Source: an uncultured Opitutia bacterium (GTDB lineage: Bacteria > Verrucomicrobiota > Verrucomicrobiia > Opitutales > Opitutaceae). Taken from it: a stretch of DNA of 36,232 nt. Shown here piece after piece: positions 32,583 through 36,232 of the stretch (its first letter is position 1; each line of letters begins with the position of its first letter). Below the pieces are notes generated by a model. That model had not been told where the DNA came from. It was given only the letters and a program-made list of their open reading frames with translations, and ran no database searches. Position numbers and translations under genes: made by a program. The DNA is taken from contig CAIRTK010000068.1 in the NCBI GenBank assembly GCA_903881475.1, positions 1 to 36,232 of the forward strand. Reading direction: 5' to 3'.

Positions 32583-33119
32583 TCATATTGTCAGCTTTCC
32601 GACTAGTCGGTAACAGGCTTCCAAAAATAGCTTTAATTCACGCCCTTCTTCTCGATCTGCGAGCTGAGTGCAGACCCATTTTGGGGCGTAAATCCGCAAT
32701 TCGGATAAGGTCCCGTTGGATCGGGAAATTATGCTCAATGTAACATCGTCAAACGGAGGCAAAAACTCTGGGTCGCTACTTGCCTCTACTTTAGAGAACT
32801 TGAAATTGCTGGAATTGAAATGACGACTGGTAAATCTATTCCACGCCGCCTCGAAAGTGCGAAAGTCGTCACCCTGAACGTAGGTCACAAAAGGCACCCT
32901 CCCGTTGGGCAGTATGACTGCAAGCGCACTGCCCTTGGCTAAATCGACGTTCTCCAACTCGAATCCCGAACCCGGCCGGCCATGCAAATCAGCTTTTGGT
33001 CCGTGAAACGGGTAGGCAAAATAAATGCCCATTTGTGCGGCAGACGCTGACGGAATCGATTCCGCACGCGCCGATCCTGAGGCGACGCACAAGAGGCAAA
33101 AAATCAGAAGTCGTTTCAC
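32583..33119 (-). CDS. Secreted protein of unknown function
   Basis: A 178-residue protein starting at GTG 33119 (an in-frame stop lies just upstream). The N-terminus KRLLIFCLLCVASGSARA is a Sec signal peptide, with likely cleavage after ARA (residue 19). The mature protein has no motif I recognise; it has a single late cysteine pair (WVCTQLADRE and LEACYRLVG). Its codons use A and T far more than the genes on either side, and it sits alone between obg and the division genes, which suggests it was acquired. Confidence 0.7.
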   Translation of the reverse strand: MKRLLIFCLLCVASGSARAESIPSASAAQMGIYFAYPFHGPKADLHGRPGSGFELENVDLAKGSALAVILPNGRVPFVTYVQGDDFRTFEAAWNRFTSRHFNSSNFKFSKVEASSDPEFLPPFDDVTLSIISRSNGTLSELRIYAPKWVCTQLADREEGRELKLFLEACYRLVGKLTI

Positions 33120-33406: not shown

Positions 33407-34690
33407 CTACAGCGTAATCTTGATTCCCTTGCGCAGATAGGTCGGCACGTCGAGGTCCTGGCCGTCAAAGAGGTTGCGGTCGGTTTTCTCGAAGTGACCG
33501 CGGCTTTCGACTTCGCCGAAGCCGAATTCCTCCTGCGCGGTCTTCGCCTGCTCCGCGGTCATCGCGGCCGGAATCAGCTCCGGTTCGGCCGGCCGGTCTG
33601 CACCGCTGGTCTTCTCGGGCGCGGGCGTGGACGTGGCGGCAACCTCGGTGCGCGTGAAAGGGGTCTTCGTCCGGCCCGCCGGGGTCGGCCGGCGGGTCGT
33701 CACCGCCCGCCCGCCCATGTCGCTCATGCCCAGCACGCAGACCTCGACGCGGTGCTGCATGCCTTCGTCGATCACCGCACCCATGATGATGTGGGACTCG
33801 CGGCCGAATTGCTCGGTGATGGCGGTCATCAGCTCGTTGACCTTCGGCAGCGTCAGGTCGGTGCCGCCGATGATATTCACCAGCATGCGGTCCGCCTTCC
33901 GGGAAAATTCCGGCGTGTGCAGCAGCGGGCAGAGCTTCAGGCTCGCCAGCGCGTCCGCCACCGCGTTCTCGCCCGTGCCCTCGCCCAGCCCGAACAGCGT
34001 CTTGCCGCCGCGCTGCTGGAACACCTGGCGCAGTGTGGCAAAGTCGAGGTTGATGAGGCCGGTCTTGAACAGCATCGCCCAGATGGACTTCACGCCGCGG
34101 CCGATCCATTCGTCGGCCCGCGCAAACGAATCGAGCACGCTGGTATCCTCCGCGCCTTCCTGGAGCAGGATGTCGTTCGGGAGCGGAATGACCGCGTCGC
34201 AGACCTTGCGCAGGGCCAGCAGACCCTCCTCGGCCTGCTTGAGCCGGCGGCCGCCCTCAAAACTGAACGGGAGCGTCACGAACGCGATGACGAGCGCGCC
34301 CTGCTCCGCGGCGATCTCCGCCACGACCGGCATCGCCCCGCTGCCCGTGCCGCCACCCATGCCGGCGATCAGGAATACGAGGTCGCAGTCCTTCACCACG
34401 GCAGCGATCTTCTCGCGGTCAGCCTCGGCGGCCTCGCGGCCGAGCTCGGGATCGCCGCCCGCGCCGAGGCCGCGGGTGACGCCCATGCCGATGAGGACCT
34501 TGTCCTGCACCGGGGAACTCGCGAGCGCCTGGTAGTCGGTGTTGATGACCGCGAGCTGCAGGCGCTCGAGGTTCTCCATCTTGAGACGGTCAACGGCGTT
34601 GGAGCCGGCGCCACCGACGCCGATGAGCTTGATCGCGATGTTGCGGTCGGTGAGCAGCGAGTGTTCCAGCGGGAGTTCGTTGAGGTTCAT
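33407..34690 (-). CDS. ftsZ: Cell division protein FtsZ, with variant T7 loop
   Basis: A 427-residue tubulin-like GTPase forming the division ring. The GTP-binding domain starts IKLIGVGGAGSNAVDRL (20-36); the tubulin signature is AGMGGGTGSGAMPVVA at 109-124, where GGGTGTGAAP is usual. The T7 loop reads GLINLDFATLRQ: Asn214 and Asp216 are kept, but the position of the second catalytic aspartate (Asp212 in E. coli) is Thr219. A variable linker (about 335-410) leads to the conserved C-terminal peptide DVPTYLRKGIKI, which binds FtsA. It starts 6 bases after ftsA. The sequence is divergent but complete. Confidence 0.96.
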   Translation of the reverse strand: MNLNELPLEHSLLTDRNIAIKLIGVGGAGSNAVDRLKMENLERLQLAVINTDYQALASSPVQDKVLIGMGVTRGLGAGGDPELGREAAEADREKIAAVVKDCDLVFLIAGMGGGTGSGAMPVVAEIAAEQGALVIAFVTLPFSFEGGRRLKQAEEGLLALRKVCDAVIPLPNDILLQEGAEDTSVLDSFARADEWIGRGVKSIWAMLFKTGLINLDFATLRQVFQQRGGKTLFGLGEGTGENAVADALASLKLCPLLHTPEFSRKADRMLVNIIGGTDLTLPKVNELMTAITEQFGRESHIIMGAVIDEGMQHRVEVCVLGMSDMGGRAVTTRRPTPAGRTKTPFTRTEVAATSTPAPEKTSGADRPAEPELIPAAMTAEQAKTAQEEFGFGEVESRGHFEKTDRNLFDGQDLDVPTYLRKGIKITL

Positions 34691-34696
34691 GGCGGC

Positions 34697-35911
34697 TCAG
34701 GAGCTGGCGAACAGGCGTTTGACGTTGGAAAGGAAACCGCCGCGGCGCCGGTTGGACAGGGCGCGCTCGTTCTGCGAGCTGACGCCGTAGTACAGCAGGC
34801 CGAGCGCGGTGTTGTTGGCGGGATCGCGCAGGTTCTCGGCCACCCAGGAGGGCGTTTCGCCGAGATGGGCCGGGACGCCGAACACCTTGGCGGCGGTCTC
34901 CGCGATGCCGGCCAGCTTGGCCGTGCCGCCAGTCAGCACGACGCCGGCGGCGCAGGTCTCGGGCGAGAAGGCGCTGCCGAGCTTCTTCTTCACGACCTCG
35001 AGCAGTTCCCACGTGCGCGCCGCGGTGATCTGCTCGATCGCCACGCGCGGGAACTGGCGGTCGCCGATCGAGAAATTGCCGTCGAGCCAGACCTTGTCGG
35101 ACTTGTCGCGGGCCTGCACGCTGGCGCGGCCGAAGCGCAGCTTCAGCTTCTCGGCCTGGCCCTCGGTGAGCCGCAGGCCGATGCTCAGGTCGTTGGTCAG
35201 GTGCGAGCCGCCGACCGGGACGACGCCCGTCGTGTGCGGGCTGCCATCGCGGTAGAGCACATAGTCCGTCGTGCCCGCCCCGAGGTCGATCGCGAGCACG
35301 CCATGCTGGCGCTCCTCGGCGGTGGTGACCATGTGGCCGGACGCGAGGCTCGAGAGGACCAGCTCGCGCACCTCGAGGTTGAAACCGCGGATGACATGGA
35401 TGTTGTCGGCCAGCCGGGGCTCCTGCCCGTGCACGGTCCAGTAGCCGACCTCGAGCCGCTGGCCCACGAGATTTTCCGGGGTGCCGGGGATCAGGCGGCC
35501 GTCCACCCGGAACGGCCGGCGGATATTATGCACGACCATGCGGCCGGCGGGCAGCTCCTTCGACTTGGCGAGGTCGCTGACCGTCCGGATGTCATCCGCG
35601 TCGATCATGTTGTCCGCCGCCTTCACGTTGAGCGACGCCTCGTTGTAGAAACCCTCAAGGTGGCCGCCAGTCTGGGCCAGGAAGACCATCTCGATGCGCT
35701 CGCCGGCGTCGCGCTCGGCCTGCTCCAGCGCACTGTGCGTGCACTCGCTGGCGGCCTTGTAGTCCACCACGGCTCCCTTGATGACGCCGCGCGAGCTGCA
35801 CTCGCCGTGGCCGATGATGGCGAGCTCACGGCCGTTGTATTCGCCGACGAGCGCGGTGATCTTCGAGGTGCCGATCTCGACGGCGCCGATGAAAGTGGTT
35901 CTGGAACTCAC
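34697..35911 (-). CDS. ftsA: Cell division protein FtsA
   Basis: A 404-residue actin-like ATPase that tethers FtsZ to the membrane. Phosphate-1 motif GAVEIGTSKITALVGE (9-24), phosphate-2 LAIDLGAGTTDYVLY, and the adenosine motif GVVLTGGTAKLAG are present, with the SHS2-like 1C region between. The last residues, GGFLSNVKRLFASS, form the amphipathic membrane-targeting helix. The start is GTG 35911, preceded by ATCCTCCTCCC and not by a Shine-Dalgarno. It lies 15 bases after ftsQ and 6 before ftsZ, a typical division operon. Confidence 0.96.
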   Translation of the reverse strand: MSSRTTFIGAVEIGTSKITALVGEYNGRELAIIGHGECSSRGVIKGAVVDYKAASECTHSALEQAERDAGERIEMVFLAQTGGHLEGFYNEASLNVKAADNMIDADDIRTVSDLAKSKELPAGRMVVHNIRRPFRVDGRLIPGTPENLVGQRLEVGYWTVHGQEPRLADNIHVIRGFNLEVRELVLSSLASGHMVTTAEERQHGVLAIDLGAGTTDYVLYRDGSPHTTGVVPVGGSHLTNDLSIGLRLTEGQAEKLKLRFGRASVQARDKSDKVWLDGNFSIGDRQFPRVAIEQITAARTWELLEVVKKKLGSAFSPETCAAGVVLTGGTAKLAGIAETAAKVFGVPAHLGETPSWVAENLRDPANNTALGLLYYGVSSQNERALSNRRRGGFLSNVKRLFASS

Positions 35912-35926
35912 GGGAGGAGGATGGGA

Positions 35927-36232
35927 CTAGTGATTGGGAAAGCCGGTGAAAAGCGGTGGCGCGGAAACGGGCGCCGGCCGGGCCGCCGCCGGCGGGGTCT
36001 GGGCGGTAAGCCCATCAAAGGCCACGGGCACCTGCCCGCCGACCGCGAGGTTGATCTCGCGCAGCGCCTTGTCCGGCTGGGCGCGCGCCGCGTCCAGGAT
36101 GGCGTCAAGGTTCGCGAGCTGCCGGAAAAAATCCTCCGTCGCACCGAAAGTGATCTTCGTGCCGTCCTTCGTGCCGATCTCGATCTCGCCGTCCGATTCC
36201 AGCCGGGCCAGCGACACCACCCGCCAGTTCAC
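35927..36232 (-). CDS. ftsQ: Cell division protein FtsQ, C-terminal part (gene runs off the window)
   Basis: The last 101 to 102 codons of a gene whose 5' end lies beyond position 36232. The visible part begins VNWRVVSLARLESDGEIEIG, matches the C-terminal beta domain of FtsQ/DivIB, and ends INLAVGGQVPVAF followed by a Pro/Ala-rich tail. FtsQ is a bitopic membrane protein bridging early and late divisome proteins; the membrane helix and POTRA domain are outside the window. The assignment rests mostly on position directly before ftsA plus the GGQVPVAF end motif. Confidence 0.8.
   Translation of the reverse strand: MNWRVVSLARLESDGEIEIGTKDGTKITFGATEDFFRQLANLDAILDAARAQPDKALREINLAVGGQVPVAFDGLTAQTPPAAARPAPVSAPPLFTGFPNH

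Follow-up and report, generated by a model that had tools for sequence, protein, structure and literature searches.

The idea that FtsZ turns over by hydrolysing GTP is central to our picture of bacterial division, and PMC8936486 describes both aspartates of the FtsZ T7 loop as conserved across species. How does a bacterium divide when its only FtsZ carries one of them? The question is raised by an uncultured Opitutia bacterium of the family Opitutaceae (phylum Verrucomicrobiota; assembly GCA_903881475.1), in which such a protein is encoded on contig CAIRTK010000068.1 within the 36,232-nucleotide stretch analysed here, referred to as the window. The first-pass annotation of this DNA had noted the absence of the second aspartate from an otherwise complete gene in its normal operon, pointed to an altered tubulin signature in the same protein, and suggested a probably functional FtsZ whose turnover is slower or catalysed in another way.

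The gene lies at positions 33407-34690 on the minus strand and encodes a complete protein of 427 amino acids. Its identity follows from the NCBIfam model TIGR00065 (318.3 bits against a curated cut-off of 295.2), from the Pfam domains PF00091 (Tubulin/FtsZ GTPase, 151.3 bits) and PF12327 (FtsZ_C, 53.7 bits), and from the predicted fold. An AlphaFold model built from 20 sequences of the family, of middling quality (mean pLDDT 65.6) with a fine core fold, matches solved FtsZ structures with Z up to 38.4 over 302 residues and an rmsd of 2.1. The T7 loop is poorly modelled (pLDDT below 50 at residues 212-215), which makes the model uninformative on the T7 side chains. The possibility that the genome encodes another, canonical FtsZ was rejected: at an assembly completeness of 99.91%, a profile search returned a single FtsZ match, and a genome-wide search with PF00091, the tubulin superfamily model, returned one match, ftsZ itself, and no BtubA/BtubB-type tubulin genes besides it.

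The neighbourhood is that of a dcw-type cluster. Directly upstream of ftsZ stands ftsA (34697-35911, minus strand; TIGR01174 at 279.4 bits, cut-off 175.85), preceded by the 3′ end of another gene (35927-36232, minus strand) that is cut by the contig end and has no Pfam match; this is perhaps ftsQ, a name given solely by its position before ftsA. In a relative with 87% identity (L055), ftsA is preceded at some distance by murB and ddl, with intervening frames between ddl and ftsA that match no NCBIfam model, and ftsZ is followed downstream by obgE and a pilB-like gene whose score falls below the model cut-off. In the window, a 178-amino acid frame between ftsZ and obgE (32583-33119, minus strand) has a start that resembles a signal peptide by eye, and has no Pfam match. 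The window gene is the ordinary, single, housekeeping FtsZ of this organism in a lineage-specific variant.

The variant part of the protein is the T7 loop. Residues 211-225, in the minus-strand translation of 33407-34690, read GLINLDFATLRQVFQ, and the loop with its following residues, NLDFATLRQ, occupies residues 214-222 (34025-34051, minus strand, as are all codons below) according to the translation and the alignments. Of the canonical two-aspartate site the first Asp is present, as Asp216 (34043-34045), which aligns with D209 of Escherichia coli FtsZ and D210 of Staphylococcus aureus FtsZ. The second, D212 in E. coli and D213 in S. aureus, is replaced by Thr219, encoded by ACA at 34034-34036. 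In phmmer comparisons with the three best-scoring solved FtsZ sequences (e.g. 2vam, 1rlu, 2rhh) the T7 loop is gapless with Thr219 on the second Asp, and a MAFFT alignment with E. coli FtsZ also places Thr219 on D212. No other acidic residue stands in register with Asp212 in these alignments. Nor does an acid stand one or two positions away from it; by eye, the translation holds no Asp or Glu between D216 and E237. The absence of the second aspartate, as first described, is therefore upheld.

The residues that partner the two aspartates in S. aureus, namely D46, Q48, G72, R143 and N208, are all present, as D52, Q54, G78, R149 and N214. They include Asp52 (34535-34537), equivalent to D46 of the T2 loop in the Mg2+ water shell, Gln54 (34529-34531) at the K+ site, Arg149 (34244-34246), whose S. 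aureus equivalent reaches D213 via a water (PMC8936486), and Asn214 (34049-34051). In the 61 genomes of the family whose loops were read, D45, G71, E138 and R142 (E. coli numbering) are each found in 61/61 and N207 in 59/61, while position 47 is Gln in 49, Lys in nine and Arg in two. Elsewhere in the order, across eight further families, these residues are less constant (D45 in 15/19, R142 in 14/19, N207 in 11/19 and Q47 in 7/19), and the clean picture of a one-aspartate site thus applies best to the window's own family.

The rest of the protein is under evident constraint. Six pairings of the window FtsZ with relatives, over 323-325 core codons, gave dN/dS values of 0.02-0.11 (Nei-Gojobori, own script), and strong conservation among 20 relatives extends to the C-terminal peptide containing DVPTYLRKG. 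In Verrucomicrobium spinosum, a species with reported targeted mutagenesis, ftsZ is essential by transposon sequencing (PMC12283558). The partner residues kept in the family and the low dN/dS point to a strongly constrained and probably working FtsZ. The gene is complete, as first described, with an intact 427-residue frame; it is also constrained and adjoined by ftsA.

To place the variant, we read the T7 loop of 201 genomes of the phylum, a non-random sample spanning 78 family codes (f1-f78), in alignments to E. coli FtsZ. From the window's family 150 genomes were searched, of which 144 had a match and 61 were read, mostly the best-scoring ones together with chosen weak ones; outside the family 387 were searched, 337 had a match in the main search and 140 were read. 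No FtsZ match was obtained in 6/150 family genomes and 13/387 others. From a set of 80 weaker genomes searched, 70 were read and ten omitted, mostly for weak or cut matches (G492, G484, G328, G246, G338, G226, G189, G393, G311 and G325). A duplicate, G360, was counted once. Position 209 was scored as kept for Asp only and position 212 for Asp or Glu, so that Glu at 209 in G440, a gene flagged with a TAA, counted as lost. L282, with no alignable T7 loop, was scored as having neither aspartate, and the alignment of L283 is poor.

Thr219 is no peculiarity of one protein, as the first-pass annotation might have had it. Throughout the family D209 is kept (61/61) and an acid at 212 is missing (0/61), its place being taken by Thr in 40 genomes, Ala in 13, Ser and Gln in three each, and Gly and Lys in one each. 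The other eight families of the order also keep D209 (19/19) and lack the acid at 212 in 18/19, the exception being one Glu. For the whole order, this amounts to D209 in 80/80 and no acid at 212 in 79/80 of the genomes read. Among the best 80 of 172 contig-database loci, partly from the same organisms, position 212 is Thr in 70 and Ala in ten. On a FastTree tree, 40 of the 41 rows from the order cluster together, with a support of 93 (unstarred) and L247 standing apart, and the loss of D212 in the order therefore looks like one old event.

Elsewhere in the class the opposite half of the site has gone. Among the remaining 25 genomes, D209 is replaced in 22 (15 times by Gly) and one more has no alignable loop, while 21 carry Asp or Glu at 212 and 14 carry Asp at 211. 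The two that keep D209 (L160 and L283) have no acid at 212. FtsZs of this opposite type, with D209 mostly changed to Gly, Asp or Glu at 212 and often Asp at 211, include those of L043, L052, L145-L147, L149, L150 and L152-L155. The FtsZ-like proteins of L281, L282 and L283 (f38 and f11) have degenerate G-boxes as well.

The 96 remaining genomes of the phylum are more varied still: 32 have both aspartates, 41 have D209 only, 16 have D212 only and seven have neither. A basic residue stands at the D212 position in 21/201 genomes of the phylum (Lys or Arg in 12, His in nine). Arginine occupies it in all seven sampled members of f39 (L245, L258, L266, L267 and L272) and f41 (L259 and L270). This is reminiscent of Lys254 of beta-tubulin, position 254 of tubulin being what we take to be the counterpart of E. 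coli FtsZ D212. The FtsZ model matched two or three times in each of four f14 genomes (G318, G321, G330 and G363), which may reflect BtubA/B-like tubulins or another copy of FtsZ.

Outside the phylum, all 15 FtsZs, divergent ones included, have Asp at both positions. This control is of modest size, consisting of E. coli and 14 sequences from 117 plasmid records with a match (60 of them listed), and spans Pseudomonadota, Actinomycetota, Bacillota, Bacteroidota, Spirochaetota and haloarchaea (Halobacteria).

The FastTree tree, built without the T7 columns, has 176 rows, including 22 of the 61 family genomes; Microbacterium was omitted since its gene was read only in part. The least number of changes on it is 20 at D209 and 18 at D212, both rough figures because support is poor at many deep forks and several long branches join. 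When losses of D209 and of D212 were compared over independent pairs (9 and 8, starred branches), the median p for their avoiding each other was 1, and the reciprocal pattern accordingly rests mainly on two big clades. Judged from these alignments, the two-aspartate T7 loop is no fixed feature of FtsZ in this phylum.

The MinC C-terminal domain (MinC_C, PF03775) was searched for as a co-lost partner and gave no match in 76/76 phylum genomes searched, so that MinC loss does not discriminate among them; 6/14 control genomes had a match. Loss of MinC, MinD and MinE was already reported for Methylacidiphilum infernorum (PMC2474590).

The second peculiarity first noted in this protein, a tubulin signature reading GGGTGSG, is less unusual than first stated. 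The motif agrees with the PROSITE tubulin pattern that PMC1845146 quotes, and the same Ser was published there for V. spinosum, as uncommon in FtsZ. A tie between this change and the T7 loss found no backing and was rejected. Ser110 occurs in 51/61 family genomes and in 24/25 from the rest of the class, where 21/25 keep an acid at 212, and it is common in the phylum irrespective of the residue at 212; it therefore does not track the loss of D212. The signature Ser is a separate, already published trait.

What the missing aspartate would mean for the enzyme can be read against S. aureus filaments, where three residues hold the catalytic water: D210 and D213 in the T7 loop of the top subunit, and G72 in the bottom subunit. 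At the transition state D210 swings; D213 stays static and reaches R143 via a bridging water (PMC8936486). The window FtsZ retains the moving residue and the Arg and is missing the static one, from which we infer a one-aspartate site with slower hydrolysis. The composite GTPase site would be completed by a single T7-loop aspartate instead of two. Asp216, the equivalent of the D210 that swings to position the water, would still act, while the residue that holds the other side of the water and reaches Arg149 through the bridging water would be gone. Compared with E. coli, GTP would be hydrolysed more slowly and filaments would last longer; cell division in the lineage would either work with slow turnover or have it compensated. 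A D216-based site with slower GTP turnover appears to be the best explanation, and we hold it with somewhat better than even confidence; the earlier suggestion, a functional FtsZ that turns over more slowly or by other catalysis, remains the likeliest reading.

In S. aureus, assembly is wholly suppressed by the change D213N (PMC8936486). The E. coli mutant D212G does assemble, into static rings, with a GTPase almost tenfold lower in one fusion construct (PMC7320174), and it complements an ftsZ null only when a suppressor is present (PMC5405962). As the loss is not tolerated in either species, some compensation is implied in the window lineage, and if that compensation is good, turnover may be normal. 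The E. coli mutant resembles the window FtsZ in losing D212 while keeping D209. It is, however, a laboratory lesion that needs suppressors for division (PMC5405962), whereas the variant described here is natural, near-fixed in the order and carried by the genome's only FtsZ.

Compensation might also be complete, with function restored by some other residue, by a bound ion or by an altered interface, and a GTPase rate near normal. We consider this unlikely. Several positions (E. coli numbering) shift in the family where they are conserved or largely conserved outside it: Glu274 becomes Lys or Arg in 49/61, position 188 becomes Trp in 61/61 and Ala223 becomes Thr in 61/61. Within the order, Lys or Arg replaces the K+-site Gln at 47 alongside Ala at 212 in 12/19 genomes, against 4/47 alongside Thr, and in the rest of the class there is the Asp at 211 in 14/25. 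However, none of the positions 274, 188, 223, 47 and 211 is placed at the gamma-phosphate by any evidence here, including the AlphaFold model, which is middling and poor in the T7 loop. The link between 47 and 212 may be one clade counted many times, and over all 201 genomes a basic residue at 47 is no commoner with loss (46/168) than with both aspartates (9/33). The hints from 47, 188, 223 and 274 are weak, and a basic residue at 47 is suggestive within the order only.

At the other extreme, hydrolysis might be essentially abolished, the Z-ring serving as a static scaffold whose filaments are dismantled by other factors. The static rings of E. coli D212G, for which PMC7320174 cites a GTPase below 1% of the wild type, would fit such a scaffold, as would the hydrolysis-blocking Lys254 in the T7 loop of tubulin (PMC13394414) taken with Lys, Arg or His at 212 in 21/201 genomes. 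What makes it quite improbable in our judgement is the retention of D216, with its moving catalytic role, in 80/80 genomes of the order, and of R142 (61/61) and N207 (59/61) in the family. A pure scaffold would not obviously need such conservation, though the same residues serve assembly (PMC8936486).

Relaxed selection, under which FtsZ is decaying in the lineage and the loss means little, finds an echo in reports of verrucomicrobial ftsZ as fast-evolving or most divergent (PMC2474590; PMC9871819) and in the families with degenerate G-boxes. It is nevertheless very improbable given the intact frame, the conserved C-terminal peptide, the adjoining ftsA and the essential ftsZ of V. spinosum (PMC12283558), and gene decay was rejected on the dN/dS of 0.02-0.11. 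That the change is an artefact of misalignment or sequencing error, for which nothing was found in favour, was rejected as having a negligible chance, since the register is gapless against solved FtsZ, the acid is absent at 212 in 61/61 family genomes and relatives from other assemblies carry the same change.

Set beside known systems, the window protein shares with the canonical FtsZs of E. coli, S. aureus and Bacillus subtilis the fold, the G-box, the T2, T3 and H5 residues, the Asn and first Asp of the T7 loop, and the ftsA neighbour; it differs in Thr for the second T7 Asp and in the signature Ser. Another parallel is found in alpha/beta-tubulin, where the acid of the T7 loop likewise controls hydrolysis at the next interface: E254 is active, and K254 in place of Glu silences one interface (PMC13394414). 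Tubulin, however, alternates active and inactive interfaces, while no homologue besides the window FtsZ was found in the genome, so that every interface would be without the acid, and the loss in the family is mostly to Thr or Ala, not Lys.

Nearer in descent is the FtsZ of V. spinosum, called canonical (PMC1845146), which is also verrucomicrobial, carries the signature Ser and lies in a dcw cluster. In four f14 genomes whose FtsZ frames are similarly long to that of V. spinosum, D209 is changed to Gly and D212 kept, the opposite of the window. That verrucomicrobial FtsZ is divergent or fast-evolving is already in print (PMC1845146; PMC2474590; PMC9871819; PMC12283558), and Fig. 1 of PMC1845146 marks eight unusual positions of the V. 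spinosum protein. No report of T7-aspartate losses was found in the literature searched, which included portions of PMC1845146, PMC5147048, PMC9871819, PMC9939409 and PMC12283558; Pilhofer 2007/2008 and Fig. 1 of PMC1845146, outside that search, could mention the T7 loop.

As far as sequences can tell, the T7 loss is a genuine variant of the FtsZ GTPase site that occurs naturally across the lineage. It reaches further and takes more forms than first noted, and we infer that it affects turnover. More tentatively, and with more doubt than confidence, Verrucomicrobiota may have repeatedly dismantled the two-aspartate site, neighbouring clades keeping opposite halves of it: D209 in the order and D212 in most of the rest of the class, while some other lineages have lost both or have put a basic residue at 212, as beta-tubulin does. 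Across much of the phylum, FtsZ-based division would then do without the canonical hydrolysis of GTP and without treadmilling, or would use several catalytic sites rebuilt independently of one another.

A phylum in which FtsZs, among them the strongly constrained one described here, may lack one, the other or both of the T7 aspartates offers natural variants for testing the need for hydrolysis and treadmilling and the role of each aspartate. In these bacteria the presence of FtsZ is not the same as a canonical FtsZ mechanism, and inhibitors aimed at the T7/GTP interface may not transfer to them. In this group, the machinery that drives division may work in another way.
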